Positions 38,900 through 60,011 of a stretch of 64,000 bases of DNA are shown piece by piece. Within the stretch, counting starts at the first letter, position 1; every line of letters begins with the position of its first letter. The notes under the pieces are model-generated. The model was not told the origin of the DNA. It saw only the letters and a program-made list of their open reading frames with translations, and did not search any database. Both the position numbers and the translations under genes were made by a program. This DNA is from an uncultured Aquimarina sp. (GTDB taxonomy: Bacteria > Bacteroidota > Bacteroidia > Flavobacteriales > Flavobacteriaceae), in the NCBI GenBank assembly GCA_947499005.1, contig CANMML010000013.1:1-64000 (forward strand), given 5' to 3'.

Positions 38900-41593
38900 C
38901 TATTTCTTAACTACCTTCTCTGTGATTACTCCTTTTTCTGTTGTTACCACAGCTATATATATTCCTGAAGTTAAACCAGAAACATTTGTCGAGTTAGCAA
39001 CTAAAGCACCTGAAAGGTCAAATATTTCTACTGAAATAACCTCAACACCTCCTTTGATTACTAATTCATTTTCTACTACAGTTTCAATAAAAACTAATGT
39101 ATCTAGACTAAAAGTTTCGTTACTTAATGTAGGACTATATTCTAGACTTAAAGTATTGGATACTTCATTATCATTCCCTGCAATATCAGTAGTACTACCA
39201 GCAGATATACTTGCCTCGACTAATCCACTTGACGAAGGAACTAGATTAAATACAAAAATAGTATTATCAACTGTTGAAAAATCTTGAACTGAACCATTAG
39301 ATACAGTAATATCTGAAGCCTCAAAAACACCTACTTCTTGTGAAAAAGTTATTGTAACAGGAATAGGATTATCATCTGTAGGGTCACTTGAAGTAGTAGA
39401 AATCATTACCGTTGGATCTGTAGTGTCTACTGTTACCGATTGAGGAGCTGAATTTAAAGTAACTCCATTCAAAGAAGAAGTCGCAACAAATGAAGCTGTA
39501 CCATCTGGTAACCCTCCTTGATTAATATATTCAAAAACACCAGCCGAATTTGTTACAGCGCTAGCAATAAACACAGGTATTGGATTACCATCTACTGCGA
39601 ATGTAATTATCGAATTAGGCTCTGCTGTTCCGCTTACCGACAACGTATTATCATTAGTTACAAAATCCAAATTACTAACCCCTGTATCACTAGTGATACC
39701 CGTAATTACCACAGGTGTATTATTTACTTGATTAACCGTAATTATAAATGTTTGATCACCCGAAGTATTAACACCTCCATTAGCTGTCCCTCCATCATCA
39801 GAAAGACTTACTGTAACTGTTGCTGATCCAAAAGCATTTGCTGCTGGTGTATAAGTTAAACTCCCTGTTGATTCATCGATATCTGGCTGCACACTAAATA
39901 ATGCATTGTCATCATTAGACACATTAAACGTCAATACTTGGACTGCTACATTATTGTCATCAATATTAGTAGCAAACATATTTACTGTTTGTGCTCCTGC
40001 ATCTTCAAGAACTGTCTGGTTTGGAGACATTGGCAAATCAAAACTTGGCGCATTGTTAGATTCCGATATTGTTATGTTTGCCGTCGAAGAATTAGGACAA
40101 TCACCTGTTGTAATATAGGTAACCATATACATCCCTGGTGTAGATTCAGAAACATCAATAACACCATTAGCAGCAATATCTAATCCCATCGAAGAGCTAA
40201 ATGAACCACCTGTTAAGCCTGTAATCGTTGGTGATGGATCTGATCCTCCCGTAAAGAAAACACTTGTATTATAATTAAAACCTGCATCATCCAAAGCGAA
40301 TATCTCTACATCATCAGTAGCTGATCCTCCACAACTATTAGTATCTGCAAATACATACGTAACTGTATGCGTACCAACCCCAGCTGCTACAGGATCAAAA
40401 CTATACGTCATTCCATTGCCATCATCAGTAATACCAGGACCTGAATAAACTCCTCCTGTTGGCAAACCACCACCTTGACCTGTTTGAACTCCTGCATCAA
40501 AACATAAATCTGATAAGGCAGTAAAGCTAACCACTGGCAACCCAAACACCTCTACATCATCAGTAGCTGACCCTCCACAACTATTAGTATCTGTAAATGA
40601 ATACGTAATTGTATGCGTGCCAATCCCAGCTGTTGCTGGATTAAAACTATATGTCATTCCATTGCCATCATCGGTGATACCAGGACCTGAATAAATCCCT
40701 CCTGTTGGCAAACCACCACCTTGACCTGTTTGAACTCCTGCATCAACACATAAATCTGATAAGGCAGTAAAGCTAACCATAGGTAATCCAAATACTTCTA
40801 CATCATCAGTAGCTGGATCACTATTAACAGTATAAGTTATAGTAGTCGTTCCCCCTCCAGCTGTCGCTGGATTAAAACTATAGGTCATTCCATTACCCTC
40901 ATCAGTAATACCTGTACCCGAATAAACACCTCCTGCCGGAGAACCTCCACCTAGTCCTGTTTGCTCTCCCGCATTTATACATAAATCAGCTAGTGCTGTA
41001 AATGTAGTTGCAGGTGTTGAAGCTACATCAAAAGTAAAAGCATCTAAAGCTAAATAATCGAATGTTCCTGTTGTAGAAATATTTAATTCATCAATATTTT
41101 CATTAGAAAAATCATTCATTGTTTCAGTTGCAAAATCTATCTCCGTAAAACCATTCTGACTCCCTGAAGGAGTATTGAAGTCAGCAGTCTTAGTAAAAGT
41201 GAAGACCTCATTATCATCCTTTTCTGCTTGTATTGTCAAATTCCCTGAACCTGTAGAAATCCCATTTAATTGAGCTAAATACACCCAAAAACTTTTAATT
41301 GTAAAATCTGATCCGTCACTAGTCACAATAGTAAGCTGTGTCCCATTGCTAGCACCTCCGGAACCATCGTGATCTAAGAATTGATTATCGGCAGCTGTTC
41401 CATCCCAACCTAATCCATTTAAAGCAGATATCCTATAGCCATCAGATGTACTACTATAATTGAAAGTTACTCCTCCTTCACTAAAGGAAACTCCTCCTGT
41501 GGTATCTCCATCAAAAGTTTCATTAGTTTGTGCTTGGAGTATTGAAATACCGAAGCAGCAAAACATTATTAGTTTAAAATAGTTGTGTTTCAT
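38900..41593 (-). CDS. T9SS-exported surface protein with repeat and cadherin/Ig-like domains
   Basis: An 897-residue secreted protein. Signal peptide 1-22 (IMFCCFGISILQAQ). Residues about 24-190 form a module also found three times in the next gene (starting at ETFDGD, ending in DYLALDAF). Residues about 195-435 are three near-identical units of about 80 residues (FTALSDLCVDAGVQTGQGGG). A cadherin-like segment (about 510-640), an adhesin-type Ig-like segment (about 645-730) and a Big-like segment with VTITFSQEVGVFEASDITVSNG follow. The last 70 residues are a type A T9SS sorting domain (VISVEIFDLSGALVA ... SGIYIAVVTTEKGVITEKVVKK). It is likely anchored on the outer surface or released. Adhesion is inferred from architecture. 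Confidence 0.85.
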   Translation of the reverse strand: MKHNYFKLIMFCCFGISILQAQTNETFDGDTTGGVSFSEGGVTFNYSSTSDGYRISALNGLGWDGTAADNQFLDHDGSGGASNGTQLTIVTSDGSDFTIKSFWVYLAQLNGISTGSGNLTIQAEKDDNEVFTFTKTADFNTPSGSQNGFTEIDFATETMNDFSNENIDELNISTTGTFDYLALDAFTFDVASTPATTFTALADLCINAGEQTGLGGGSPAGGVYSGTGITDEGNGMTYSFNPATAGGGTTTITYTVNSDPATDDVEVFGLPMVSFTALSDLCVDAGVQTGQGGGLPTGGIYSGPGITDDGNGMTYSFNPATAGIGTHTITYSFTDTNSCGGSATDDVEVFGLPVVSFTALSDLCFDAGVQTGQGGGLPTGGVYSGPGITDDGNGMTYSFDPVAAGVGTHTVTYVFADTNSCGGSATDDVEIFALDDAGFNYNTSVFFTGGSDPSPTITGLTGGSFSSSMGLDIAANGVIDVSESTPGMYMVTYITTGDCPNSSTANITISESNNAPSFDLPMSPNQTVLEDAGAQTVNMFATNIDDNNVAVQVLTFNVSNDDNALFSVQPDIDESTGSLTYTPAANAFGSATVTVSLSDDGGTANGGVNTSGDQTFIITVNQVNNTPVVITGITSDTGVSNLDFVTNDNTLSVSGTAEPNSIITFAVDGNPIPVFIASAVTNSAGVFEYINQGGLPDGTASFVATSSLNGVTLNSAPQSVTVDTTDPTVMISTTSSDPTDDNPIPVTITFSQEVGVFEASDITVSNGSVQDFSTVDNTIFVFNLVPSSSGLVEASISAGSTTDIAGNDNEVSNTLSLEYSPTLSNETFSLDTLVFIETVVENELVIKGGVEVISVEIFDLSGALVANSTNVSGLTSGIYIAVVTTEKGVITEKVVKK
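40285..41015. repeat. Three tandem units of about 246 bp in the 897-residue T9SS gene
   Basis: Each unit encodes the segment from FTALSDLC to DDVEVFG. The two left-hand units (about 40290-40777) are almost identical at the DNA level; the right-hand one (about 40780-41015) is shorter and more diverged. Boundaries are approximate. Confidence 0.8.
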
Positions 41594-41655: not shown

Positions 41656-44600
41656 TTATTGTTTAATGATCTTTAAAATTAAACTTTTTCCTTCTAAAAA
41701 AGTAATTCCAACCAAATAAACACCTGAATTAAAATCACTTATATCCACAGAATCTACATTTCTCACTTCAAATAACACCTTACCTGACAAATCAAATAAT
41801 TGAAGTAACTCAATAGGGTTTGAAGAATCCACTTCAAAAATATCTTTAACCAAAGTATTGTAGCTAATTGATGATTTCAAATCAACTACATTATTAGATA
41901 AAGTAACAGTATCTTTTTCAAATGACTCACTAGCCTGTAAAGCATTATTCCCTGCAAGATCACTAACATCTGCAGTTACTGTTATATTCCCATCATCCAA
42001 ACCACTAATATCTGCAGCTGAAGCTGTAAATGTATTTGAAGAAACTAGTCCTGTCACTTGAACTACTGGATTGTCACCATCATCAAAAGTGATTGTTACA
42101 GTTTGACCATCTTCTGCACCTGTCGTTTCACCGCTTATTACTAGGTCACTTTCTTCTGTTTCATCAACAATATCATCTCCTGAAATCGGTGTTGTAATAG
42201 ATATTGTAGGAATTGCTGCATCTTTTGCTTCTGTATCTGTAGCAGCCAAACCTGTATTACTATTAACATCAGTAAGCGTAACACTCAATGTAATTGTACC
42301 ATCTGCTAAACCACTTAAATCAATACCTGTAATTTGATCCGTAGCTGTAGCAACAATTCCCGAACCTGTTACAGAACCTGCTCCGCCATCTGATGTAAAA
42401 CCATAATTGTAAGTAGCACCAACTTCCGCTCCAGAAAATGTAAAACTTACGGCATCATCATTTCCTCCATTAATCGACGATTGACCAATAGACACTGAAT
42501 AACCTGTAGGCGCAACCGTTTCTTTCGTTTCTGTATCTGTAGCTGCTATACCAGTATTGCCATTTACATCAGTCAAGGTAACACTCAAGGTAATTGTACC
42601 ATCTGCTAAACCACTTAAATTAATAACATCGATTTGACCTGTAGCCGCAGTAATGGTTCCTGAACCTGTAACAGAACCTACACCACCACTTGAAGTAAAC
42701 GTATAGTTATACATCGAACCAACTTCGGCTCCACCAAACACAAAACTAACAGTAGCAGCATTACCACCATTTATTGGTGACTGTTCAATACTTACTGTAT
42801 ATCCACTTGGAGCTACCGTTTCTTTCGTTTCTGTATCTGTAGCTGCTATACCAGCATTGCCATTTACATCAGTCAAGGTAACACTCAATGTAATAGTACC
42901 ATCAGCTAAACCACTTAAATCTATACCTGTAATTTGATCCGTAGCTGTAGCAATAACTCCTGAATTTGTAACTGAACCAGCGCCTCCGCTAGTCGTAAAT
43001 GTATAATTATAGGTTGCACCAACTTCGGCTCCAGAAAATGTAAAACTTACCGCATCATCATTTCCTGCATTGATTGGAGATTGATCAACTACTACTGAAT
43101 AACCACTAGGAGCTACTGTTTCTTTCGTTTCTGTATCTGTAGCTGCAGAACCAATATTACCATTTACATCGGTCAAAGTAACACTCAATGTAATAGTACC
43201 ATCTGCTAAACCACTTAAATCAATGCCTGTAATTTGGTCAGTAGCTGTAGCAATAACTCCTGAATTTGTAACTGAACCAGCGCCTCCGCTAGTCGTAAAT
43301 GTATAGTTATACATCGAACCAACTTCGGCTCCACCAAACACAAAACTAACAGTAGCAGCATTACCACCATTTATTGGTGACTGTTCAATACTTACTGTAT
43401 ATCCACTTGGAGCTACCGTTTCTTTCGTTTCTGTATCTGTAGCTGCTATACCAGCATTGCCATTTACATCAGTCAAGGTAACACTCAATGTAATAGTACC
43501 ATCAGCTAAACCACTTAAATCTATACCTGTAATTTGATCCGTAGCTGTAGCAATAACTCCTGAATTAGTTACAGAACCTGCTCCTCCGCTTGTCGTAAAT
43601 GTATAATTATAGGTTGCACCAACTTCGGCTCCAGAAAATGTAAAACTTACGGCATCATCATTACCTGCATTGATTGGAGATTGATCAACTACTACTGAAT
43701 AACCACTAGGCGCTACTGTTTCTTTCGTTTCTGTATCTGTAGCTGCAAAACCAATATTACCATTTACATCTGTCAAAGTTACGCTAAGGGTAATAGTACC
43801 ATCTGCTAAACCACTTAAATCAATGCCTGTAATTTGGTCAGTAGCTGTAGCAATAACTCCTGAATTAGTTACAGAACCTGCTCCTCCGCTTGTCGTAAAT
43901 GTATAATTATATGTGGCGCCAACTTCGGCTCCAGAAAATGTAAAACTTACGGCATCATCATTACCTGCATTAATTGGAGATTGATCGATACTTACTGAAT
44001 AGCCTGTTGGTGCTACCGTTTCTTTTTCTACCGTATCGATAGCATCGGTTCCCATATTACCACTAGTATCTGTCAAGTTTACAGTTAGAGTCAATGTTCC
44101 ATCATTTCTATTCGTTACATCAATATCTGTAATTTGCTGATCTGTCGATGTAATCGTTCCTGTTCCAGTTGTTGAGTTTGGAAATCCATCGGTTCTTATA
44201 CTGTATTCGTAAGAAGCACCTATTTCTGCCCCAGAAAAAGTAAAACTTACCGCATCATCATTTGAGCTATTCACTACAGATTGATCGATAGTGACAGTAT
44301 ATCCTGATGGCGCTGTACCATCTTGACAGAAATCGAAATTATCGACACCCAGATATACAAAATCAGTTGCAATAGTAATTTCCAATTCATCAATTAAATC
44401 TGCTGTAACATCATTTCCATCTAAAGAAGAAAAATCAACTACTAAGAAACCATTATTCCCTTCTGACGATGACGTTGGAAAAGTTGTATTTGATGTACTT
44501 AACGTAGCAGTAAACATCTCAACATCATTCTCTTTTCCTATAATCGTAACAGAACCGTCAGCTGTTGGACTTGAAGCTGCAGCAATAGAAGACAAATACA

Positions 44601-46563
44601 ACGCTATAGTATTCATTGTAAAATCTGTACCATCTGTGGTAGCAATACTAAATGTTCCTACTCCAGTACCTTCATTATCTAAGAATTTATCTGAAGTTCC
44701 TGCTCCTGCTCCTGTACTTTCAAAAATATCTAAACCTCCTGTAACCTCGAACGAAAATCCATTACTAGAAAAAGTTGTTGCCCCTACTGCCTCAGACTCA
44801 AAAGTAGTTACGAAGCATTCCGATCGCGTGAATACGTCTCCTCCTGAAAAAGCCGCAGGAGGTGTATTTCCTAAAACATCTTCAATATCTGTAGTTGCTT
44901 TCAAATTTAATTTCAGTGTTCCTTCTCCAACAATATCCCTTATACCTATGGTATATTGGTTTCCACTACCTGGAACATCTGGATCAATACTTGCAGAAAG
45001 AGAACCTGTCGTTTCTAACTCAAAATCATCTGATGTAACATTATTTACATTTTCATTAAAAGTTACCGTATAGCTTAATGCAGTAGCTGTACTTAATGGA
45101 GTACCCGACAAAACTATACTATCTACCTCTGGTACAATAGTGTCTGCTTGACCATCTTCGCAATGTTCAAAATGATCAATAGCAATGTACGCAAATGAAC
45201 CGCCTAGTACGATTTCAATCTCATCTACATCTATAAAACTAAAATCTGAAGTTCCTTCTGTAGCTATATTCAAATTAAAAAAACCATTATCTCCGTTAGT
45301 TGTAGATGTAGGGAAACCCGATGATTTAGTAATAGAATACACTTCTAAGTCAATCACTTTACCAATCAACGTTATTGTTCCATCATCAGTAGGAATACTT
45401 CCCCCCATATTCGATGAAAGAAATAAATCTATAGTACTTAATGTAAAAAACTCACCTCCAGTTGTTGCTATTGAAACTGTTGTAGCTGTACCAGAATTAT
45501 CAATAAAAAAATCAGAATCTCCTGCTGCCGAGTTATTAATTGTTTCTACACTTAATCCAGTGGTTGTAAAATCTATCCCATTACTAGAAAAAGTGGTAGC
45601 ACCCGCCATTAATCCTTCAAAAGACTCTTCAAAACAAGAAGAAACTATATGATTTTCACCGGATGTAAATGCAAGAACGTTTCCATTGGTTCCATTTCCA
45701 TTTCCTGAAGCATCAATAATATCTGAATTCGCATTTAAATCTACACTTACTGTTCCTTCACCATCTATCCCTGTAATCGTTAATGTATACGTAATTCCTG
45801 AACCTGAAATATTATCGATAGTCCCTGTAGCAGTACCTGTTAAGTCAATAGTAAAATCATCTATTGATACATTCGTTGCATCCTCACTAAAAGTCACATC
45901 TAAATTTATAGTATCTGTTGTTGAACTAGGTATCCCTGCAACTTCAATACTTTCAACTGAAGGCGGAGCAATATCACTAGACAAAGCCGTCCAGTTAAAG
46001 GCATCTACTGCTAGGTAATCGAAACTACCTGTCGAAGTAATTATTAACTCATCGATATCCTCTATGGAATGATCTGTAGTATCATCATTCGCAAAATCTA
46101 TAAATGTGAAACCGTTATTAGGGCCTACTGGAACAATACTGGTAAAGCCCGAAGTTCTTACAAACGTAAAAACAGATCCATCATCTTTCCTTCCTTCAAA
46201 GGATACCGTACCCATTCCGTTTCCAAAACCACTAGTAGCACAGAATAAGTACAGACTATTGAGACGAAAATCAGTCCCCATGTCTGCAGAAATCGTAATA
46301 CTACTTCCGTTATTTTCTCCATTTTGACCATCCGCATTATCAATAAAACGATTATCAGGAGCACTTCCTGACCAACCTAACCCATTGGCGATAAGTATGT
46401 CAAAGGTTTCAGAAGTTGCACTAGAAATATTAAATATTTGTCCATTATCTGTAAAAGTAGAAGAACCCATTGCTTCGGATTCAAAGACTTCTGTAGTCTG
46501 CGCTATACTAACCCTAGAAAAGGCAAAAACTGTTAGCAATAGCAGTAAATAATTTGATTTCAT
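41656..46563 (-). CDS. Giant T9SS-exported repeat protein
   Basis: A 1635-residue secreted protein. Signal peptide 1-22 (LTVFAFSRVSIAQ). Three copies of a module of about 165 residues lie at about 24-192, 308-466 and 581-744 (FESEAVGATTFSSNG ... VDNFDFC), separated by Ig-like segments with VDLNANSDIIDASGNGNGT. Residues about 751-1450 are seven tandem 100-residue units (APSGYSVVVDQSPINAGNDD ... LADGTITLSVTLTDVNGN). An additional Ig-like domain with TDVSDLAGN-type wording and a type A sorting domain (LLQLFDLSGKVLFEV ... SGVYLVGITF) complete it. It should be secreted by the T9SS and attached to the surface. It lies 42 nt after the methyltransferase gene and is probably transcribed with it. Confidence 0.85.
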   Translation of the reverse strand: MKSNYLLLLLTVFAFSRVSIAQTTEVFESEAMGSSTFTDNGQIFNISSATSETFDILIANGLGWSGSAPDNRFIDNADGQNGENNGSSITISADMGTDFRLNSLYLFCATSGFGNGMGTVSFEGRKDDGSVFTFVRTSGFTSIVPVGPNNGFTFIDFANDDTTDHSIEDIDELIITSTGSFDYLAVDAFNWTALSSDIAPPSVESIEVAGIPSSTTDTINLDVTFSEDATNVSIDDFTIDLTGTATGTIDNISGSGITYTLTITGIDGEGTVSVDLNANSDIIDASGNGNGTNGNVLAFTSGENHIVSSCFEESFEGLMAGATTFSSNGIDFTTTGLSVETINNSAAGDSDFFIDNSGTATTVSIATTGGEFFTLSTIDLFLSSNMGGSIPTDDGTITLIGKVIDLEVYSITKSSGFPTSTTNGDNGFFNLNIATEGTSDFSFIDVDEIEIVLGGSFAYIAIDHFEHCEDGQADTIVPEVDSIVLSGTPLSTATALSYTVTFNENVNNVTSDDFELETTGSLSASIDPDVPGSGNQYTIGIRDIVGEGTLKLNLKATTDIEDVLGNTPPAAFSGGDVFTRSECFVTTFESEAVGATTFSSNGFSFEVTGGLDIFESTGAGAGTSDKFLDNEGTGVGTFSIATTDGTDFTMNTIALYLSSIAAASSPTADGSVTIIGKENDVEMFTATLSTSNTTFPTSSSEGNNGFLVVDFSSLDGNDVTADLIDELEITIATDFVYLGVDNFDFCQDGTAPSGYTVTIDQSVVNSSNDDAVSFTFSGAEIGASYEYSIRTDGFPNSTTGTGTITSTDQQITDIDVTNRNDGTLTLTVNLTDTSGNMGTDAIDTVEKETVAPTGYSVSIDQSPINAGNDDAVSFTFSGAEVGATYNYTFTTSGGAGSVTNSGVIATATDQITGIDLSGLADGTITLSVTLTDVNGNIGFAATDTETKETVAPSGYSVVVDQSPINAGNDDAVSFTFSGAEVGATYNYTFTTSGGAGSVTNSGVIATATDQITGIDLSGLADGTITLSVTLTDVNGNAGIAATDTETKETVAPSGYTVSIEQSPINGGNAATVSFVFGGAEVGSMYNYTFTTSGGAGSVTNSGVIATATDQITGIDLSGLADGTITLSVTLTDVNGNIGSAATDTETKETVAPSGYSVVVDQSPINAGNDDAVSFTFSGAEVGATYNYTFTTSGGAGSVTNSGVIATATDQITGIDLSGLADGTITLSVTLTDVNGNAGIAATDTETKETVAPSGYTVSIEQSPINGGNAATVSFVFGGAEVGSMYNYTFTSSGGVGSVTGSGTITAATGQIDVINLSGLADGTITLSVTLTDVNGNTGIAATDTETKETVAPTGYSVSIGQSSINGGNDDAVSFTFSGAEVGATYNYGFTSDGGAGSVTGSGIVATATDQITGIDLSGLADGTITLSVTLTDVNSNTGLAATDTEAKDAAIPTISITTPISGDDIVDETEESDLVISGETTGAEDGQTVTITFDDGDNPVVQVTGLVSSNTFTASAADISGLDDGNITVTADVSDLAGNNALQASESFEKDTVTLSNNVVDLKSSISYNTLVKDIFEVDSSNPIELLQLFDLSGKVLFEVRNVDSVDISDFNSGVYLVGITFLEGKSLILKIIKQ
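42213..44312. repeat. Seven 300-bp tandem units with a 600-bp higher-order duplication
   Basis: The landmark TCTTTCGTTTCTGTATCTGT recurs at 42521, 42821, 43121, 43421 and 43721, exactly 300 bp apart, with diverged versions one unit on either side. 42701-42966 is identical to 43301-43566 (266 bp), showing a 600-bp duplication of a two-unit block. The units encode 100-residue Ig-like domains. Confidence 0.95.
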
Positions 46564-46605: not shown

Positions 46606-47598
46606 TTATTTGTATTCAATTTGCCACATTGGGTCTTTGGTAATTTTATATTTGAGTTTGAATGACTTTTCTTCTTTTAAATTCATTAATGACCCAACAC
46701 ATAAAGGATTTGTAATATTTGATTCTGCCTTTAGTATTTTTTCCTGATCATACACTTTAAGTTCTGTATACAAGAAAATATTAGGGTCATGATATTTTGT
46801 ATCTTCAAGATGTATCCAATTACTTTCGAAAAAGCAATCTTCTCTATTGGTAGAATAATTCATCTCTTTCTCTATTTTCATGAGTTCTTGTAGATCCAAA
46901 TTAGGCTTATATGAAAGATCCCCTTTAATTGTATAAGCTTCGGGTCTACACTCTAAAACAGGTTCTTTATTGGAATCTGAATATCCTATATTTATGATAA
47001 TTTCTTCTGGAATTAGAATTCCTTCTTTTTTAAGTTGCGGAATTAAATTTTGAGTAATTGCTACTTGGGGCTCCCTGGTTAGAGCACTGTACATCGTTTC
47101 AGTAACGATTAGATCTAACTTAGTAGAATGTTGATAAGTAATTGCATCATCCACCTTTATACTTTCAATATAATCATTCAATGAAAGAGTGTTTACAATA
47201 CTTTTTAATACGCTAACGGATGATTGATTGATATCAATAAAGGTTACCTCTAATCGATCATCTCTTAACAAATTGAGTATTGGAATCAATAAAGGAGCAT
47301 AAGGCCCGCACCCAGCATAAAGAATGCGAACTTTTTCTCCTTTATTAGATTCTAACAAATCATTTATAGCTTTATAAATGCCTTTTATAAAACTGTATGT
47401 TCTTTTATAATCTAAAATACAATCAGCTGCATACTGTTCACATAAAGCAAAGCCATGAGATAATTGTACGTCATTCGTATTATTTGACAATAAAGGAAAT
47501 TGTTTATAAAAGTCAAAAAGACGTATCACAAAAGCCTTCGAAGCTTCTTTATTCGAATCGAGAATACTTTTTGTAATATTTATTAATGACTCCTTCAT
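46606..47598 (-). CDS. SAM-dependent methyltransferase
   Basis: A 330-residue cytosolic protein with a class I Rossmann methyltransferase core. Motif I is VRILYAGCGPYAPLLIPIL (about 91-109), with an acidic residue at the end of strand beta2 in VTFIDINQSS, then KVDDAITY, and TETMYSALTREPQVAITQNLIP at motif IV, resembling the PRMT-like Glu pattern. The N-terminal 75 residues are helical. The substrate is unknown; the Ser/Thr-Glu motif and size could suit a protein- or small-molecule-directed enzyme. It lies 22 nt after the collar gene and 42 nt before the giant T9SS gene. Confidence 0.75.
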   Translation of the reverse strand: MKESLINITKSILDSNKEASKAFVIRLFDFYKQFPLLSNNTNDVQLSHGFALCEQYAADCILDYKRTYSFIKGIYKAINDLLESNKGEKVRILYAGCGPYAPLLIPILNLLRDDRLEVTFIDINQSSVSVLKSIVNTLSLNDYIESIKVDDAITYQHSTKLDLIVTETMYSALTREPQVAITQNLIPQLKKEGILIPEEIIINIGYSDSNKEPVLECRPEAYTIKGDLSYKPNLDLQELMKIEKEMNYSTNREDCFFESNWIHLEDTKYHDPNIFLYTELKVYDQEKILKAESNITNPLCVGSLMNLKEEKSFKLKYKITKDPMWQIEYK

Positions 47599-47620
47599 TT
47601 CCTATTTCTTTTTTAGATTA

Positions 47621-48220
47621 TTAATTTCTTGAAGGGAAAGTCCCAAACATGCAAATGATATAATTAAGCACCAAATAAGGTTGCATAATATTGAATGCTT
47701 GACTACCTCCACTATTAAACACCGTTGTGGTAGCCGATGAAGCAGCCCCTCCATTCAACAGCACATTAGGAGCTTGATCGTTATAACCTAATGTTGGCGA
47801 AAAATTCCTTGAAACTGTAGCTCCTGGCGTTGCTAGTGTACTGCCATTGGTTGGACTACTAATGGTTGCATTACCATTATTTGCCCCAATCCCTACCGTT
47901 ACTGTAGTCTGTGCTGCATGGCTATGCACAGGCATCTCCAAAATATTCAAAGTATGTGTCTGCGCACCAGATCTTTGACCTAAAGGCCTTGGTGATAAAC
48001 CTGGACCTGTACCTTCCCCTATTGCAGCACGACCTCTTAGATCTGGTAAACCAAAAGAGGTTCTACCATCTCCACCGTAAGTAGTTCCTAATATTGAAAA
48101 TAATGCTTGGTTTTGATTAATTGCTAATAATTGCCCTGCACAAAATGCCCAGTTACGTGGAGCAAAATTCCCTGCAAACATTGCCACAGAACCTATCATT
48201 GAATCTGATTGTGATGCCAT
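47621..48220 (-). CDS. Phage-tail-collar domain protein (Mdp-like)
   Basis: A 199-residue protein. The N-terminal half is a tail collar domain: MIGSVAMFAGNFAPRNWAFCAGQLL, NQALFSILGTTYGGDGRTSFGLPDLRGRAAIG, typical of the microcystin-dependent protein family. The second half is Ala, Thr and Gly rich, with HTLNILEMPVHSHAAQ, and ends in MQPYLVLNYIICMFGTFPSRN, a standard ending. There is no signal peptide. In phages this fold makes trimeric tail-fibre collars; chromosomal copies without phage genes have no proven role. It stands between the formyltransferase and methyltransferase genes with 22-23-nt gaps; no other phage gene is present. Confidence 0.85.
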   Translation of the reverse strand: MASQSDSMIGSVAMFAGNFAPRNWAFCAGQLLAINQNQALFSILGTTYGGDGRTSFGLPDLRGRAAIGEGTGPGLSPRPLGQRSGAQTHTLNILEMPVHSHAAQTTVTVGIGANNGNATISSPTNGSTLATPGATVSRNFSPTLGYNDQAPNVLLNGGAASSATTTVFNSGGSQAFNIMQPYLVLNYIICMFGTFPSRN

Positions 48221-48243
48221 AATATAAAATTTAAATTGGTTAG

Positions 48244-49194
48244 TTAATTATTTAATGTTTCTAATTTATTTCTTTTAAGCTTTGTAGTAAATCGCTGATT
48301 CAATTGCATTCCTAGATTAACATATTTGTCCCCAGATAGGACACCTGCGTCACTACTTATAGTTTTCAATCTTAATAATTGTCCATATTTGCATACTACA
48401 TACAAGCCTTCTAACGGGTGGGCATGAACAATTTCTCCTGCTGTCCTCCCAAATAAAGGTTGCTGCCCTGAGACTTGAGAAACTTCTAATAATTTCAATT
48501 CACTTCCTTGATAATAAGTACTCGCTCCTCCATATCTTGGGTTACAAGCATTTACTAAAAACTCAATTTCATCTGAAGTTTGATTTTCCCAATCAATTGA
48601 CAGAGCCTTTTTACTTGGTTTAGGGTTATAGATTACATTTTCTAATGACTGAATCTTGAACGAAGCCTCGTTGCCAATCCTTTGCAATATCTCATTTACC
48701 AATCCCTGTGTATTTAATATCAACTTTGAAGATAGCATACCGTGGGTTTCCCCTAGAATGACAGGTATTTTTCTTTCATATAGAATACTTCCTGTATCAA
48801 ACTGATCGTCCATTTGATGAACTGTAATTGCCGTCTCCTTTTCTGCATTTCTTATCGTCCAAAAAATAGGGTCTGCACCTCTATTTTGGGGCAATTTCCC
48901 TGGGTGCACATTCAAGAAACCATATTTAGGTATGTTCAATATACTTTCGGGTATTCTATAACTCAACCCACTAACAATAACCAAATCAATATTATGATGT
49001 GTTAAAAACAAAGGCAATTGTGCTTCCATTACCTCAACCGAAGAGGAATAAACAGGACAATTTATATTTTCTTTTAAAAAGCCTTTGTAATTGCTATTGC
49101 TAATGAAGAGCCCTAGCATATTTGTTGTTTCATTCAATTCTTTAATAAGTATTGAACAAAGTGGCAAACTCCCTATTAGTACAGTATTTAGCAT
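48244..49194 (-). CDS. Formyltransferase-like protein (Fmt superfamily)
   Basis: A 316-residue cytosolic protein of the methionyl-tRNA formyltransferase superfamily. The catalytic loop LNVHPGKLPQNRGADPIFW carries the His of the usual Asn-His-Asp set with a modified neighbourhood (Val-His-Pro), and an Asp is found at MDDQFDTGSIL, the typical D-x-G segment. The C-terminal part (about 215-310) looks like the Fmt C-domain (NPRYGGASTYYQGSELKLLEVSQV). It is unlikely to be the housekeeping Fmt because of the context; formylation of an amino sugar or amino acid is a reasonable alternative. It is the first gene of the tight three-gene set. Confidence 0.78.
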   Translation of the reverse strand: MLNTVLIGSLPLCSILIKELNETTNMLGLFISNSNYKGFLKENINCPVYSSSVEVMEAQLPLFLTHHNIDLVIVSGLSYRIPESILNIPKYGFLNVHPGKLPQNRGADPIFWTIRNAEKETAITVHQMDDQFDTGSILYERKIPVILGETHGMLSSKLILNTQGLVNEILQRIGNEASFKIQSLENVIYNPKPSKKALSIDWENQTSDEIEFLVNACNPRYGGASTYYQGSELKLLEVSQVSGQQPLFGRTAGEIVHAHPLEGLYVVCKYGQLLRLKTISSDAGVLSGDKYVNLGMQLNQRFTTKLKRNKLETLNN

Positions 49195-52010: not shown

Positions 52011-53042
52011 CTATTTAGCTTCTAATTTCCATGTACGTACCCAATCCACACGCATGGTATTAATCGAATCATCATTTAGATCTTCTCTTTCAGGTAGGCC
52101 ACTAATATTACACATTTCATTAGACCATAAATCAAATAGAAGTTCTAAAGGGCGATTCATATCTTGACTTGTCGTTACTTGCCCTGCTTCTTCTCCGTTT
52201 AGATAAAATTGCACATTACGAGCATCTTTCCACCAAGCACCTACTATATGATAATCTTCATCCCAAGTCTTACCCTTATTAGGATTAGCATTTGACAAAG
52301 AATTAGTACTAAAATTACCATGACGATTTTCTGTTTGCCCATCCTTAGCAATAAAATACTGAGAATTCATTTGCGTAGGATACAAATGTGTATCCCATAA
52401 AAAACCAGGTTCAGTTTGAGCTGTATCTCTACATTCTTGAGTAGGATTAGAATTATTTTCAACAATATCAATTTCATCTCTATTGTTTATATCTCCATTA
52501 TTCATCCAAAACGTATTGAATGCAGCAATATTAGCAGCTTTCATACTACATTCCGTATACATTGGATAAGTAATTTGCATTTTAGAATGAATTCTAGCTG
52601 ATTGAAACCAACGACCTTCAGGATTTCTTTCATTTAAAGTAGCTTTTATCCACATTTTCCCATCGGCAACCCCTGAGTTTTGCGAACTACCAGACATAAA
52701 TACAGGAACAGCATAGTGCCAAAAAGAATTAAACCACTTAGATCTATCAATCTCATCCCCATCAAATTCATCAGACATTTGATCTACTTTTACCCATTCC
52801 ATAGTTTCTGGTGTTGTATCATCTACAGAAACGAAAGATGGCAAATTAGAGTCTAAATCAGACAACTCAAAAGGCTCTATTGGATCCGGTTCTGGTTCTG
52901 GTTCTGGTTGAGGCTCTGGATCTGGCTCAGATTGACCTGGTGTATCTGGGTTATCATTATTCCCAACATCATCATTAGTATCAGGAGAACACGCAAGGAA
53001 CATGGCAAGCATACTCCACACTAAAAATCTATAAATTTTCAT
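52011..53042 (-). CDS. GH16 lipoprotein, agarase/porphyranase-like
   Basis: A 343-residue surface lipoprotein from ATG at 53040-53042 (MKIYRFLVWSMLAMFLAC, Cys at 18). A Pro/Glu-rich linker (about 35-60, PEPQPEPEPEPDP) connects the anchor to a GH16 domain. The catalytic motif is EIDIVE in NRDEIDIVENNSN, with the two Glu as nucleophile and acid/base. FNTFWMNNGDI, YHIVGAWWKDARNVQFYLNGEEAG and the ending DSINTMRVDWVRTWKL match agarase- and porphyranase-like members rather than laminarinases or carrageenases. It would cut red-algal galactans outside the cell. It is the first polysaccharide-degrading step suggested for the locus to its right. Confidence 0.82.
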   Translation of the reverse strand: MKIYRFLVWSMLAMFLACSPDTNDDVGNNDNPDTPGQSEPDPEPQPEPEPEPDPIEPFELSDLDSNLPSFVSVDDTTPETMEWVKVDQMSDEFDGDEIDRSKWFNSFWHYAVPVFMSGSSQNSGVADGKMWIKATLNERNPEGRWFQSARIHSKMQITYPMYTECSMKAANIAAFNTFWMNNGDINNRDEIDIVENNSNPTQECRDTAQTEPGFLWDTHLYPTQMNSQYFIAKDGQTENRHGNFSTNSLSNANPNKGKTWDEDYHIVGAWWKDARNVQFYLNGEEAGQVTTSQDMNRPLELLFDLWSNEMCNISGLPEREDLNDDSINTMRVDWVRTWKLEAK

Positions 53043-53205
53043 AATAAAGTGTTTTTTGTTATACAATTAAGACAGCCTTTATTTTTTTTACAAAAAGCTA
53101 CCCATATTTTACTACATCGTTATAGTTTATATAAACTATAACGATTTTATTTTACAACACCCTTACCTTATGCAGGGCTAAATCTATTCCTTAATTCACA
53201 AATCA

Positions 53206-54009
53206 CTATAAATCAAGCCTTAAAAGCTCTATTTTTCTAATACTTAGACCATGACTTTCTCCTTGCAAAGCAATATAACCTGATGTTAACTTCTTCGATA
53301 TACCTCCTTCGATCAGCTTAGCCGTGTGAGCATCTTTTTCATCTAAAACAGCATTTGAATATTCTATAGCCAAATTACCATTAACAAAATGTTTGAACAC
53401 TCCATTATTTACCTCAACCTCAATATTTACCCATTCTTCTCCATCAAAAGCCTGTGAATTGGATATTGTGCAGTGATCTGTAATTAATTCTTTATTAAAC
53501 TCTATATGAGTTCCTGGAGTACAAACACTAGCTGTTGATCTACCTCTAAATCTTTCATCATTCGAATTTTTATCACTAGCTAGCAATTGCGCTTCAATCG
53601 AAGTAGGAAATGGTTGGTTCAAATCCATCGTTTGAGGAGATTCACTATGTAACATAATTCCACTATTCAAATACCCCCACCAAGGACCTCCTTCTTGTTG
53701 CTTACCTACAAACTTATACTCGAGCCTTAATCTGTAGTTTGTCAATTTTTCATTGTAGAAAATATGAGCAAACTTATTATCGAATTTGTCGTAATTATCA
53801 TATGATACTTTCAGCATTCCATCTTCTACACGAAAAGTATTCTTATAATTATCTCCTACTTCGTGCCCTGAAATTTTGACAGTCCAATTCTTCAAGTTTT
53901 TCCCATTGAAAATAGGAATCCATTTATCTTTCTCCTTTTTAGCAAGTGACAGAATAAGAAATGATACTGTAGTCAAGAATAACAGAACAGTAGTTTTTCT
54001 CTTTTTCAT
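53206..54009 (-). CDS. DUF1080 / 3-keto-disaccharide hydrolase family protein
   Basis: A 267-residue exported protein (signal or anchor at about 6-23). It contains one DUF1080 jelly-roll domain: WIPIFNGKNLKNWTVK, FRVEDGMLKV, YRLRLEYKFVG, LNSGIMLHS, TSIEAQLL, then VCTPGTHIEFNK and the ending SGYIALQGESHGLSIRKIELLRL. Members of this family cleave glycosidic bonds in sugars whose C3 was oxidised to a ketone. Here that fits the Gfo/Idh/MocA dehydrogenase encoded nearby. It follows the ThuA gene by 131 nt, with a terminator and an inverted repeat in the gap, so it can be separately controlled. Confidence 0.88.
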   Translation of the reverse strand: MKKRKTTVLLFLTTVSFLILSLAKKEKDKWIPIFNGKNLKNWTVKISGHEVGDNYKNTFRVEDGMLKVSYDNYDKFDNKFAHIFYNEKLTNYRLRLEYKFVGKQQEGGPWWGYLNSGIMLHSESPQTMDLNQPFPTSIEAQLLASDKNSNDERFRGRSTASVCTPGTHIEFNKELITDHCTISNSQAFDGEEWVNIEVEVNNGVFKHFVNGNLAIEYSNAVLDEKDAHTAKLIEGGISKKLTSGYIALQGESHGLSIRKIELLRLDL

Positions 54010-54039
54010 TTTGGGGGCTCTTAATTTAATTCTTTGTTC

Positions 54040-54070
54040 GATTTACGAAACTAAATCGATTTCGTAAATC
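54040..54070. promoter_or_regulatory. Perfect 11-bp inverted repeat upstream of the DUF1080 gene
   Basis: GATTTACGAAA (54040-54050) and TTTCGTAAATC (54060-54070) with a 9-nt spacer, 31 nt before the start codon. No T-run follows on the minus strand, so an operator is more likely than a terminator. Confidence 0.5.
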
Positions 54071-54115
54071 AAAAAAAAGTTTAACTATTTTTTTTACAAA
54101 ATTAAACTTTTTTTT
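54071..54115 (-). terminator. AT-rich terminator after the ThuA gene
   Basis: A perfect 14-bp inverted repeat (A8 GTTTAA / TTAAAC T8) with a 17-nt loop, ending in a T-run on the minus strand, 26 nt after the ThuA stop. The stem is weak because it is nearly all A-T. Confidence 0.6.
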
Positions 54116-54140
54116 CAATTGAAAAATATTATACTAAAAT

Positions 54141-55184
54141 TTAATCATTTTTATGATTTTCCCATTGTCGAGATTTAGACTCATTTATCGTTGGAAAATC
54201 TTTCGGAACTTCCTGAGTTACACTCCCTGTAGCAGCCCATTCTGCCCCACGCTGAAAAGTCGTCATAAACCCAATACATTCCATAGAATAATCGAAATGC
54301 CCAAGAGTACTATGAAAAACCCTACCCTTACCATAATTTACAGTTAATAACATCGGAACATTTTTACCTGTCCCCTTAATACTATGATCATACCAAGGAT
54401 CATTCAACTCTACATCCGAATGCGCTGTAGCTAGAATTGTAGCATTATCAAATGGCCCTCTCATACGATCATAAAGTTCATCTTTAGTATGAAGCCATTC
54501 TCTAGGAAGCCCTTTTAAAATAGGATGTTCTGGCTGATGATGCGTAATAACAAATTCATATTCTTTACCATGAGACGCACACACTCTTGCTGAATGATCT
54601 TTCTTTATTTCACCATTATCTTCTACATAAACAAAAGGACCTGTAGCTGCATTTCTATCACCCCATGCTCCTAAACCTATCATCTTATTATACTCTTCCC
54701 AATCCCCCCAAGCATTATTGGCTGCATGCACAAGCACTAAACCACCTCCTTTTTTCATATACTTTTCAAACTTCCTTTTCATACACTTAGACCAATCAGG
54801 AGTAAAAGCCCCTAAATTCGAGACTATTAGATCATATTTTTCAAAATCAACTTTAAAATCAGTTGTCTTTAAAGCATCCTTTGTAATAGGTCTTTGAACG
54901 GAATCTAAAGGAAACTCATTAACAAAATAGTCATGAGCTTCTGGTCTCTCAGGGAAATATTTAAACCCTTTCCAAACAGTATCTAATCGAGAAATTGCAA
55001 CCTCAAAAAGCCCTGTTTGCTCTAAATAATCCTTCATCATCATTGACGTTTTAGGCCATACATAATGATTGTTTGATCCATCTAAAATAAGCGCTTTCAA
55101 AGGTTTTGATTGTTCTTGCGAATAAACCGCACAAAACATGAATAATTGTATTAATACTAAAAATTTCACTTTAGTGTATTTCAT
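54141..55184 (-). CDS. ThuA domain protein
   Basis: A 347-residue exported protein with signal peptide MKYTKVKFLVLIQLFMFCAVYSQ. The ThuA/class I glutamine-amidotransferase-like fold covers about 27-310: KALILDGSNNHYVWPKT, YDLIVSNLGAFTPDWS, GGGLVLVHAANNAWGDW, FVITHHQPEHPILKGLP and YGKGRVFHSTLGHFD. ThuA-like proteins occur in sugar loci with Gfo/Idh/MocA dehydrogenases and sugar isomerases, but their reaction is poorly defined. It lies 35 nt after the AraC-type regulator gene and is probably co-transcribed with it. Confidence 0.88.
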   Translation of the reverse strand: MKYTKVKFLVLIQLFMFCAVYSQEQSKPLKALILDGSNNHYVWPKTSMMMKDYLEQTGLFEVAISRLDTVWKGFKYFPERPEAHDYFVNEFPLDSVQRPITKDALKTTDFKVDFEKYDLIVSNLGAFTPDWSKCMKRKFEKYMKKGGGLVLVHAANNAWGDWEEYNKMIGLGAWGDRNAATGPFVYVEDNGEIKKDHSARVCASHGKEYEFVITHHQPEHPILKGLPREWLHTKDELYDRMRGPFDNATILATAHSDVELNDPWYDHSIKGTGKNVPMLLTVNYGKGRVFHSTLGHFDYSMECIGFMTTFQRGAEWAATGSVTQEVPKDFPTINESKSRQWENHKND

Positions 55185-55219
55185 TTTTATGATTTAGTTT
55201 ATGACTTTATTGTAATTCT

Positions 55220-56251
55220 TTAAATGGAAGCATCTACTTCTTCTTCAACTCTTAAACGATATTTTTGAGGTGTAGTTTTCAGGTGCTTTTTAAAAACAGT
55301 TGTAAAATATTGACTTGTAGAAAAACCACATATATAAGCTACTTCGGAAGCACTTAATTCTGGTTTATCCCTAAGCATTTTGCAAGCCATCGCTAATCGT
55401 TTCTTAGTCAATACCTGCATTGGTGTTAAATTTGTAAGCTGCTTACAATGATGTGTAAACCTAGTCGTACCAAGACCCGAAGAACTAGCCATCTCTTCTA
55501 TAGTCCATCTTCGCGAAGGATCATTACCCAACTCATCTAAGAATAATTTTGCAGAACGCAAACTATCTGTCAACGATTCATTAAGTATCAATTTCCCTCT
55601 ATCAAACATTTCTAGAAGCAAAACAAGCAACTCATTAATATATACCCTCACTTTGGATGATGGATCTTCAAGATCATCATTTAATAGATTATTAATCTTC
55701 CTAAAACAATCCTTGATTTCTGGTGTGGCTTTCCAAACCGGCTGCTCATTTTGACGAATAGAAAGAGTCAATCTTTCTAAATCACTCTCGGAAAGCACTA
55801 TCCAATCTGGCCATATCCATTTTTGATGTGGGCGCCGAACACCTACATCGAGTATAATCCAATAGAATTTCCCCATACCAATATCAGGGTTCCCCACCTT
55901 GTGTTGCTGCCATGGTCGAGTAATCGTAAAATCCCCCGCAGTTAACTCTGTTTCGTGGTTCTCTACAGCATAAGGCATGGTACCCGACTCTAAGAAATGA
56001 AACTCAACCCCTTCATTTCTATGCCAGTCCAACCCCCAGTCTTGTTTAAAACTAGCATCCCAATACCCAATAGTATTTAGCCCTTTAGTATCCTTTGTAA
56101 GCCTTTCTCCTGGATAAGTATGTCTAGCTAATGCTTTAAATTCAACCATCGATCGTTGGTGAGCATCAACAAGAGGAACACAAGTATCCGCATGAAAAAC
56201 AGATCCGTTTTCTCCCTCGAAAGGAGTTATAGTATGTTTAATTTTATTCAT
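55220..56251 (-). CDS. AraC-family transcriptional regulator
   Basis: A 343-residue regulator from ATG at 56249-56251; a longer reading to 56359 has no support and would run through the divergent promoter region. The N-terminal half is a cupin ligand-binding domain (VEFHFLESGTMPYAVENHETELTAGDFTITRPWQQHKVG). The C-terminal 100 residues carry two helix-turn-helix motifs (TIEEMASSSGLGTTRFTHHCKQL and SASEVAYICGFSTSQYFTTVFKKH). It probably senses a sugar and controls the divergent transporter operon and its own, with ThuA downstream. Confidence 0.9.
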   Translation of the reverse strand: MNKIKHTITPFEGENGSVFHADTCVPLVDAHQRSMVEFKALARHTYPGERLTKDTKGLNTIGYWDASFKQDWGLDWHRNEGVEFHFLESGTMPYAVENHETELTAGDFTITRPWQQHKVGNPDIGMGKFYWIILDVGVRRPHQKWIWPDWIVLSESDLERLTLSIRQNEQPVWKATPEIKDCFRKINNLLNDDLEDPSSKVRVYINELLVLLLEMFDRGKLILNESLTDSLRSAKLFLDELGNDPSRRWTIEEMASSSGLGTTRFTHHCKQLTNLTPMQVLTKKRLAMACKMLRDKPELSASEVAYICGFSTSQYFTTVFKKHLKTTPQKYRLRVEEEVDASI

Positions 56252-56327
56252 TGTAAAATATTGAACACTCAAATCTACAAAAAAATATACATTTCGGCTT
56301 ATTTCAATTAAATCTTTAAATTGTAAC

Positions 56328-56350
56328 TTGAGAGAGGTTCTCTTACTCAA
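56328..56350 (+). promoter_or_regulatory. Imperfect dyad in the regulator/transporter gap
   Basis: TTGAG-A-GAG and CTC-TTA-CTCAA flank GTT, about 20 nt before the MFS gene start. It is a possible binding site for the AraC-type regulator or a local repressor; the interpretation is tentative. Confidence 0.35.
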
Positions 56351-56371
56351 TAAAATCAATGTTCAATTCCC

Positions 56372-57532
56372 ATGACAGAAAAATCAACATTAAAATTATT
56401 TAGTGCAAGTTGTTTTGCTTTAGTTACCACAGCGATGACATTTGCCATCCGTGCTAAAATTGAAGAGGTGTTTATCTCTGATTTTCATCTTACCAACGAG
56501 CAAATTGGATTTGCTTTTGGCCCTGCATTCTGGGGGTTTACATTAGCAATGGTTATTGGTGGTCCTTTAGTAGATTATTTTGGGATGAAAAAAATTCTGA
56601 ATATAGCATTTATTGGCCACCTATTAGGGATCATAATTACCCTTGCCGCTAGAGATTTTTGGACTCTTTTTGTAGGTACTTTATTTATTGGTATTGGAAA
56701 TGGAATGGTGGAAGCTGCTTGTAATCCTTTGGTTGCTGCTCTGTTTCCTAATAATAAAACCAAAATGCTAAATAGATTCCATGTTTGGTTTCCTGGAGGT
56801 ATTGTTATTGGTAGCGTACTAGGATATTTATTAATGGATGTACTAGGGCTAAATTGGATGTTCTTAGTTGGAACACTTTTTATTCCTTTAATAATATATG
56901 CTTACATGGTATATGGAAAAGAATTTCCTGCTACTGAAAGGGTAACGATGAAGGTGAGTAATAAAGATATGTTTAAAGCATGTTTATCCCCATTATTTAT
57001 TTTCATGATACTTTGTATGTTTTTAACAGCTGCTACAGAACTAGGTACGGGACAACGCATCTCTTCTTTATTAGGAGAATCTGGAATCCCTCCATTATTG
57101 ATACTGGCCTTTATTAATGGACTAATGGTAGTAGGGAGATATTTTGCTGGAGAAATTGTACATCGACTTAATATTTCTTTAATGTTATTTTTATCTGCGA
57201 TATTTTCATTTACTGGATTAATATTATTGAGTTATACTTCTGGAGTATTAGTTTTTGTTTCTGCAGCTGTATTTGCCATTGGTATATGTTATTTTTGGCC
57301 AACAATGTTAAGCTTTGTTGCTGAAAAGATACCACAAAGTGGAGCTTTAGGGCTTTCCCTAATGGGAGGTGCAGGAATGCTATCTGTATCTGTAATTTTA
57401 CCCATTATGGGAAGTTATATGGACACCAATACTAGTGGATCAGAAACATTGAGATTAATGGCAATATTACCAGCAATACTCATTGGTGCTTTTGGAGTAC
57501 TTAATATTGTTTTAAAGAAAAAAGAAGCCTAG
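56372..57532 (+). CDS. MFS sugar transporter
   Basis: A 386-residue inner-membrane protein with about 12 hydrophobic segments. The loop 2-3 signature is GGPLVDYFGMKKIL, and VEAACNPLVAALFPNNKTKMLNRFHVWFPGG resembles the sugar:H+ symporter group found with Gfo/Idh/MocA genes. It likely imports the oligosaccharide or monosaccharide product of the locus. It is divergent from the AraC gene and 15 nt ahead of the dehydrogenase gene, which indicates one operon. Confidence 0.88.
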   Translation: MTEKSTLKLFSASCFALVTTAMTFAIRAKIEEVFISDFHLTNEQIGFAFGPAFWGFTLAMVIGGPLVDYFGMKKILNIAFIGHLLGIIITLAARDFWTLFVGTLFIGIGNGMVEAACNPLVAALFPNNKTKMLNRFHVWFPGGIVIGSVLGYLLMDVLGLNWMFLVGTLFIPLIIYAYMVYGKEFPATERVTMKVSNKDMFKACLSPLFIFMILCMFLTAATELGTGQRISSLLGESGIPPLLILAFINGLMVVGRYFAGEIVHRLNISLMLFLSAIFSFTGLILLSYTSGVLVFVSAAVFAIGICYFWPTMLSFVAEKIPQSGALGLSLMGGAGMLSVSVILPIMGSYMDTNTSGSETLRLMAILPAILIGAFGVLNIVLKKKEA

Positions 57533-57547
57533 TACATAGATTTATAA

Positions 57548-58717: not shown

Positions 58718-58783
58718 TTTGCTAATTAATATCTCTTTAAAAATTTTAAACTTAGCAAATTATACAAGAAAAGAATTCATATA

Positions 58784-59839: not shown

Positions 59840-60011
59840 AAAAACAAATATCTCAACAAAGCATCCGAAGAATAAAACCAAAAAAATGCTTTTGTTAGAT
59901 TTCAGCACAAATCTTAAGGATTTTGCTTTATATAAGAATTAAAAAATGTAGTAATACTCAACCTTATTGAAAGTTTTTATCAATTAAATGATAAATGTTA
60001 GTAGTGTTTAT
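59840..60011. other. Intergenic leader-free gap before a terminator
   Basis: AT-rich and non-coding as far as I can see; only very short frames (for example a 17-codon frame from 59886) occur. The 59840-60283 interval otherwise holds the terminator and the 49-residue gene listed next. Confidence 0.5.

Follow-up and report, generated by a model that had tools for sequence, protein, structure and literature searches.

A phage-type tail-collar gene grouped with PRMT-fold methyltransferase, Fmt-like and giant surface-protein genes in Aquimarina: conserved neighbourhood and a proposed function

Phage tail parts are used outside phages in contractile injection systems and tailocins. In the window analysed here (the whole stretch of 64,000 nt, positions 1 to 64,000 of contig CANMML010000013.1) from an uncultured Aquimarina sp. 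of the Flavobacteriaceae, a gene for a phage-tail-collar protein stands between genes for a formyltransferase-like (Fmt-like) protein and a methyltransferase, and the gene of a giant repeat protein with a sorting signal of the type IX secretion system (T9SS) follows. What do two such enzymes do beside a solitary tail-tip protein? A sequence-only reading of this DNA suggested that their target might be the collar protein, the giant or a small molecule, and that a decorated fibre would result. On the basis of the comparisons reported below, these genes almost certainly form a conserved functional unit.

Gene order and conserved neighbourhood

The Fmt-like gene (49194-48244, minus strand; 316 aa, Pfam Formyl_trans_N at 1.1e-20 and Formyl_trans_C at 2.4e-10), the collar gene (48220-47621, minus strand; 199 aa, PF07484 at 8.3e-28) and the methyltransferase gene (47598-46606, minus strand; 330 aa, assigned by predicted fold and PDB profile matches to the fold of protein arginine methyltransferases, PRMTs) are separated by 23 nt (Fmt-like/collar) and 22 nt (collar/methyltransferase). 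The giant gene (46563-41656, minus strand; 1635 aa, TIGR04183) begins 42 nt further on, as seen from both coordinates and sequence. This tight same-strand arrangement, described in the sequence-only reading, was borne out by the coordinates of the open reading frames (ORFs), and the Pfam matches agree with its assignment of the first two proteins to the Fmt superfamily and the collar family. Because its homologues hold the same place at other loci (L085, L086, L093, L094, L095, L097 and L100; loci, genomes and contigs are numbered L, G and C, respectively), an upstream gene for a protein with an RR-type signal, similar to that of the twin-arginine translocation (Tat) pathway (49881-49372, minus strand; 169 aa), can be counted by its position as an additional member of the set beyond the trio and the giant gene.

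A query of named genomes with the methyltransferase gave 347 confirmed loci, of which 80 were kept. The profiles used (COL, MT, FMT, UP and TATD) derive from the loci that were found first, and the counts lean towards those subfamilies. A collar gene was present within 3 kb of the methyltransferase gene at 57 of the 80 loci, and 48 of the 80 had, in addition, an ORF of 900 aa or more no further than 7 kb away. At all 18 loci where the profile found an Fmt-like gene, a collar gene lay within 3 kb of it. Rare co-occurrence, which the sequence-only reading had named as the result that would speak against it, was thus not what we found, and the shared role that it proposed for these genes is well supported by the conserved neighbourhood. 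The set of three families needs some qualification: both pairings with the collar gene held, whereas the two enzymes close together were rarer. An Fmt-like gene was found within 6 kb of the methyltransferase gene at 16 of the 80 loci, and a collar gene within 5 kb together with an Fmt-like gene within 6 kb at 14. Because each enzyme often adjoins the collar gene without the other, the Fmt-like protein and the methyltransferase look like interchangeable accessories, not an obligate pair.

The order UP-FMT-COL-MT-giant on one strand was observed at five loci (L093, L094, L095, L097 and L100), and parts of it at many more. L098 keeps the order without a detected UP gene, and so does L099, where the stretch ends inside the giant gene. 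In Pedobacter (L101, L110, L115 and L128) and in a Bacteroidia metagenome-assembled genome (MAG; L120), the methyltransferase gene faces a COL-COL-COL-FMT run. Many Flavobacterium have it between a collar gene and a giant gene that are both on the opposite strand. A few loci bear the titles of other phyla (L141 Arcobacter, L166 Thermoanaerobaculales, L170 Peptococcaceae and L171 Spirochaetales, the methyltransferase of the last being found by tblastn and absent from the ORF calls), all of them MAGs for which contamination is possible.

The association extends to whole genomes. Within the same family, 24 of 299 genomes had a match to the methyltransferase, and 22 of these matches were strong (E<=5e-27); the other two, with E of about 1e-6, were in G119, which has no collar gene, and G255, which has one. 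All 22 genomes with a strong match have a collar gene, compared with 67 of 298 genomes overall. The collar gene was adjacent in 12 of the 22 and not beside the methyltransferase gene in 10; co-occurrence without adjacency in 10 of 10 genomes has a hypergeometric p of 3.4e-8, calculated without correction for kinship, and in one of the 10 (G079) the contig with the methyltransferase gene measures only 4.5 kb. Chance grouping was ruled out by the conserved neighbourhood together with this co-occurrence. In the genome of the window, both collar genes have a methyltransferase gene beside them, and one of the two pairs is part of a prophage. This prophage on contig C11 (L051:7514-8989; also L088 and L089) carries its collar and PRMT-fold methyltransferase genes beside a tail fibre gene, and its other genes include terminase, head protease and tail proteins as well as a weak portal match.

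The methyltransferase, the Fmt-like protein and other modifying enzymes

No Pfam or NCBIfam family matched the methyltransferase above cut-off. Its AlphaFold2 model (confidence score pLDDT 84.7, from a 15-sequence alignment) was compared with the PDB by Foldseek, giving 508 chains at E<=0.001 with a top match at 2.5e-12, and the best 50 were all PRMT entries or PRMT5 complexes. Judged from this model, the enzyme very probably has the PRMT fold; its earlier description as a Rossmann methyltransferase was correct as far as it went, and the Foldseek matches and the double-E alignment now make the fold more specific. The best 50 matches had query TM-scores of 0.44-0.57 and identities of 8-16%, values that make the relation to PRMTs a distant one. 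A search of PDB chains with a sequence profile returned six matches up to E=1, all of them PRMT7 or PRMT1 (best 0.012), which are weak alone and consistent with the model.

Among the sequence motifs of PRMTs, the double-E loop is kept. Its E167 and E176 are invariant in all 15 aligned methyltransferases, and every methyltransferase ORF, 63 collar-linked and 23 others, contains E-x8-E. The loop of the window protein, TETMYSALTREPQ, aligns on SEWMGYCLFYES of PRMT1 and, compared with the consensus SExMGxxLxxExM, has T for the first S and Y for G. According to a passage in a study of PRMT2, these two glutamates grip the substrate guanidinium (PMC8623767). In the N-terminal part, D-x-x-R-T is kept and aligns with PRMT7, and D..R[TS] was found in 56 of 63 linked and 15 of 23 other ORFs. 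Motif III, which appears as LKxxGxxxP within a list of PRMT motifs (PMC12925635), is LKKEGILIP in the window protein, and the looser L...G...P occurs in 37 of 63 linked and 12 of 23 other ORFs. Neither YFxxY (type I) nor PLxxN (type II) was seen when the N-terminal part of the window protein was read. Because the predicted fold and the double-E loop are there, whereas the THW loop is absent, we use the term PRMT-fold: this is likely an enzyme with PRMT-like chemistry rather than a canonical PRMT. It resembles PRMT1, PRMT5, PRMT7, PRMT9 and CARM1 in predicted fold, double-E loop, the LKxxGxxxP of the window copy and (PRMT7) D-x-x-R-T, and differs from them by lacking THW and YFxxY, by being bacterial and by its pairing with a phage-type collar protein.

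The closest methyltransferase in the named genomes (86% identity) was from an uncultured Aquimarina. A role in anti-phage defence was considered and set aside, PADLOC giving only a weak match of the S-adenosylmethionine-binding part to the MADS methyltransferase (1.6e-6, 25 bits). In the Arcobacter MAG, a 719-aa protein (L141:9938-12097) comprises a PRMT-fold region and a long extra part, and its cluster contains an FMT gene, two collar genes and a giant gene.

The Fmt-like protein scored 121.8 bits against the fmt equivalog, below the cut-off of 201.5. Its catalytic triad (N95, H97 and D133) was invariant in two alignments (13 of 13 and 9 of 9 sequences). When compared with the canonical Fmt of the same genome (L092, on contig C53), the loop region around DRPAGRG showed a 5-column gap in all eight collar-linked copies, longer in the copies of the window and L093, and none of the eight kept DRPAGRG. 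We take this region to be the insertion loop for tRNA recognition. Canonical Fmt identity was ruled out by the sub-cut-off score and the loop that is shortened relative to L092; methionyl-tRNA formyltransferase shares both Pfam domains and the N-H-D triad with the Fmt-like protein, which differs from it in score, in loop and in the collar gene beside it. PDB matches include ArnA, VioF, PseJ and gramicidin synthetase.

Some match to Fmt was found in every one of the 298 family genomes, and a close copy (48-50% identity) only in G248 and G019, of one genus, where the order is UP-FMT-COL-COL-giant with no methyltransferase gene beside it. A profile of 13 Fmt-like sequences matched 22 of 395 genomes of the phylum at E<=1e-45, the own genome included, and 19 of the other 21 had a collar gene nearby (15 within about 1.5 kb, three in wider stretches at L285-L287, and one at L087). 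The two exceptions were L288, on a 6.5-kb contig, and L284, which is probably a canonical copy because a deformylase-like gene adjoins it (by eye). A periplasmic-binding-like gene that shows no clear signal peptide (the scanned copy, L041:11269-12405, matches PF13458) often lies between the collar and FMT genes; it was also found at L087:7413-8561, L285-L287, L290 and L291, after the collar gene and before any Fmt-like gene.

Other modifying enzymes were observed near related collar genes. The collar cluster of L120 encodes an Asp/Asn beta-hydroxylase, a PKHD-type 2-oxoglutarate oxygenase and a carbamoyltransferase, that of L101 an adenosine 5'-phosphosulfate (APS) kinase and PhyH, and that of L141 PhyH. 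Clustering by sequence of the 57 collar-near loci plus L143, L144, L147 and L161 showed that the PhyH type recurs at 8, the APS-kinase type at 5, the PKHD type at 3 and the periplasmic-binding-like type at 10 loci. Mainly because the small-group enzymes vary around one structural protein, we read the collar protein as their client, not as part of a fixed small-molecule pathway. A family of 166-175 aa also recurs in collar clusters (L101:17177-17698, L141:9377-9904, L147:12497-13000 and L289:8234-8734); the one member scanned had no Pfam match, and some members contain HEAGH. In closely related Flavobacterium, a ketosynthase-type biosynthetic group was seen by eye beside the collar gene (L118:12093-17665, and the same in L123 and L126).

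The collar protein and the surface-protein genes

The collar domain of the window protein scored 96.6 bits against a PF07484 cut-off of 24, and the T4 short tail fibre (1ocy) was matched at 5.2e-6. The Collar domain is what it has in common with this fibre and with phage collar proteins; it differs as a stand-alone protein of 199 aa with modifying enzymes and a T9SS protein alongside and with non-structural scanned neighbours. A signal peptide was not seen in it. PHROGs scans of five proteins (the Fmt-like, upstream, shikimate kinase, second T9SS and nitrate-reductase-like ones) found only metabolic or auxiliary families, in two of the five, and the methyltransferase matched no PHROGs family. 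Sheath, tube, baseplate and packaging genes were looked for in the same five neighbours, the giant lying outside the scan, and no structural family was found. Within this scope the earlier remark that the collar gene is free of any other phage gene holds, a prophage remnant at the locus was ruled out, and the locus differs from contractile injection systems and tailocins, whose sheath, tube and baseplate families were not seen in these neighbours.

Collar genes are often annotated as tail fibre proteins, and collar proteins of this kind go under the label 'Microcystin-dependent protein' (COG4675), which may cover the present proteins as well. Proteins of COG4675 are listed in a soil metaproteome and assigned to Pedobacter among others, with no modifying enzymes or giant partner described in the relevant part of that report (PMC5579227); they may be of the same kind as the present collar proteins. 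In Candidatus Solibacter usitatus, paralogues named 'phage tail collar domain protein' are reported to carry signs of positive selection (PMC3174227). These are likewise bacterial collar proteins, from another phylum, and are possibly related to ours.

An alignment was made of 102 linked collars of 130-260 aa after removal of duplicates; the collars of L170, at 80 aa, and that of L259, at 79 aa, were too short for it, and L261 gave none with the collar profile. Both histidines of HxH at residues 99-101 are present in 94% of linked collars. Residue 138 is Arg in 65% of the 102, compared with 9% of 47 collars from methyltransferase-free genomes, and Phe140 is found in 66% of linked collars. The strict motif R.[FYWL].P occurs in 38 of 102 linked and 1 of 49 methyltransferase-free collars, and the prophage collar paired with a methyltransferase also carries the Arg138 motif. 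On the other hand, the arginine of the C-terminal FPSR (residue 198) is general, being present in 94% of linked and 87% of methyltransferase-free collars, and does not discriminate. Arg138 is a candidate modification site for the window's branch only.

Two further groups of collar genes were noticed. A collar gene of another kind, bearing a Sec-like signal, occupies a similar place at L204, L205, L206, L211, L214, L256 and L258, with alternative complex III and translation genes (IF-2 and NusA) as neighbours by eye. At L203, L208, L210, L212, L215-L217, L286 and L287, signal-less collar genes, single or paired, are oriented divergently from what looks by eye like the histidine kinase and regulator of a two-component system, accompanied by a small protein of 118-148 aa.

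With a T9SS type A sorting signal over the cut-off (TIGR04183, 25.8 bits versus 23) and a genome that encodes a T9SS (SprA, 2567 bits), the giant qualifies by sequence as T9SS cargo. Its N-terminal domain (first copy 45979-46503, minus strand) has no Pfam family, 10 of 10 members giving no match. Two further copies follow within the giant (45166-45633 and 44329-44814, minus strand), and one, 46% identical to that of the giant, is encoded at 41027-41533 in the second T9SS gene downstream (41593-38900, minus strand; 897 aa). No others were found in the own genome. The domain is present in 14 of 298 genomes and beside a collar gene in 7. All seven domain proteins longer than 1500 aa, from six genomes, are among the collar-side ones; G063 has two such proteins, one of them about 7.5 kb from the collar gene and adjoining the first giant. 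Around methyltransferase loci, 26 of 28 domain ORFs were within 3.5 kb of a collar-linked methyltransferase gene; the way in which loci were chosen biases this count. The giant and second T9SS genes are separated by a terminator-like hairpin 3' of the giant gene (41646-41616, minus strand; 12-pair stem with 6 G-C, then CTAAATTTTT). A transcript end behind the giant gene is plausible from this sequence; statistically the signal is weak, with nine such sites found and 5.2 +/- 2.1 in shuffles. The Tat-signal protein belongs to no Pfam or NCBIfam family, and its AlphaFold2 model (pLDDT 76.4) gave no PDB match at E<=0.001, so the attempt to derive a function from the fold failed. It and the giant's domain are the only parts of the set that do not belong to known superfamilies.

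A proposed role and the competing explanations

Taking gene order, domains, the predicted PRMT fold, the conserved neighbourhood and family co-occurrence as the observed base, the best overall reading, which we hold tentatively and at slightly less than even chance, is that a domesticated tail-tip protein is modified by dedicated enzymes and shown together with a giant surface protein. The phage-derived collar protein would have become central to a conserved module. In the cytoplasm, the dedicated PRMT-fold enzyme would methylate it, most likely on arginine, and the collar protein is, on a narrow balance, probably the substrate of that enzyme. The Fmt-like enzyme, which has lost its likeness to the tRNA enzyme, would formylate an amine of the collar or a partner; that the formyl group is placed on the collar protein itself is possible but doubtful. 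Other lineages would swap in or add hydroxylases or a carbamoyltransferase. Outside the cell, the collar protein would act as the recognition tip of a surface structure with the giant T9SS protein as its stalk and the giant's own N-terminal domain as the likely docking part; this joint display is likewise possible but doubtful. What we infer beyond the observed base is which substrate and which residue are modified, how the collar protein is exported, that it touches the giant, and that it serves adhesion or recognition.

Several results weigh against such a reading. A strong methyltransferase match is missing from 45 of the 67 collar genomes, and the enzyme is therefore an accessory to the collar. 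Conversely, there were 23 loci without a collar gene within 5 kb, and 17 of them, each in a further genome, were checked (L096 and L150, on short contigs, were left out, as were L143, L144, L147 and L161, where a collar gene is located further off in the same locus): 10 of these genomes had a collar gene and in 7 none was found. The seven are all gammaproteobacterial by title and mostly MAGs (Oleiphilus, Halieaceae, Halioglobus, Hahellaceae and similar). The methyltransferase family is therefore not tied to the collar everywhere, and it may have another substrate in gammaproteobacteria, whose branch (L142, L148, L151, L155, L160, L162 and L165) stands apart with other neighbours by eye. None of the methyltransferase ORFs, 63 linked and 23 others, contains the THW loop, and both substrate and chemistry may differ from those of PRMTs. 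Two results weaken Arg138 as a general site. The strict motif is absent from all 21 collars that are distant from a methyltransferase of their own genome; 20 of these belong to genomes where the two are not adjacent, and the last is from G198, in which other collars adjoin the methyltransferases. The linked collars of L036-L042 lack it as well. In the other 7 of the 14 genomes with the giant's domain, it occurs in smaller proteins away from any collar. Finally, export of the collar protein is the weakest step: a crude hydrophobicity rule found a signal peptide in 0 of 102 linked collars, and an export route would be needed.

This lack of signals would suit a collar protein that stays inside the cell as a folding or trimerisation helper for the giant, the enzymes modifying the giant before secretion. 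The domain of the giant adjoins the collar in 7 of 14 genomes, and the methyltransferase gene of the window is directly upstream of the giant gene; both observations speak for such a helper. We nevertheless consider it unlikely. None of the 10 genomes with a non-adjacent methyltransferase and collar has the giant's domain (E<=1e-4), and the methyltransferase-collar link is therefore independent of such giants; moreover, 16 of 47 collars from methyltransferase-free genomes have signal-like N-termini by the same rule, which suggests that related collars probably act outside the cytoplasm. Linkage without joint function is a less probable explanation still, and we regard it as very unlikely: the collar-methyltransferase pair would be cargo moved by prophages, as the pair inside a prophage of the same genome might indicate, but no relative of the methyltransferase was found among 50,697 phage records, 31 pattern matches in viral contigs yielded 0 confirmed, and co-occurrence without adjacency in 10 of 10 genomes is unexpected from linkage alone.

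It is also conceivable, with a small chance of being right, that the two enzymes produce a small molecule, for instance an amine carrying formyl and methyl groups, and that the collar and giant only bind or display it. Fmt-like enzymes outside translation, such as ArnA, VioF, PseJ and gramicidin synthetase, use sugar or peptidyl amines, some related clusters contain a carbamoyltransferase and an APS kinase, and the ketosynthase-type group seen by eye at L118, L123 and L126 lies beside the collar gene. That group is, however, confined to 3 of 80 loci, no gene that would build a scaffold by sugar nucleotide, peptide or polyketide synthesis was seen by eye at the window locus, and the methyltransferase has the fold of a protein-modifying family. 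A domesticated collar protein that is modified and displayed thus remains our preferred reading. In its boldest form, which we think unlikely to hold in full, Bacteroidota would possess a system dedicated to methylating arginines of a domesticated phage tail-tip protein as its client. The PRMT-fold enzyme would be one tool of a swappable box (methyl, formyl, hydroxyl and carbamoyl) that patterns a surface recognition fibre, and the fibre would be anchored by the giant T9SS protein through a docking domain that has so far had no name.

No paper on this gene combination or on a collar-PRMT link was found among the titles and abstract starts of the openly licensed literature. A comparative-genomics study of peptide-modifying dioxygenases may touch on related operons, and a mention in print is possible. 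As far as these searches go, the set appears to be new as a gene system, its function being a proposal. To our knowledge, PRMTs are usually discussed as eukaryotic enzymes, and arginine methylation is called widespread among eukaryotes in the abstract of one article (PMC12925635). A bacterial PRMT-fold family tied by gene order and co-occurrence to one structural protein would offer a concrete client, a simple test system and, if the proposal is true, a possible route for the history of the PRMT family. Phage tail tips would then have been reused as host surface parts amid several group-transfer enzymes, and collar genes would gain a testable role.

Elsewhere in the window, a GH16-like glycosidase gene and a group of genes for sugar utilisation that includes an AraC-type regulator were recognized by eye at 52011-60000.

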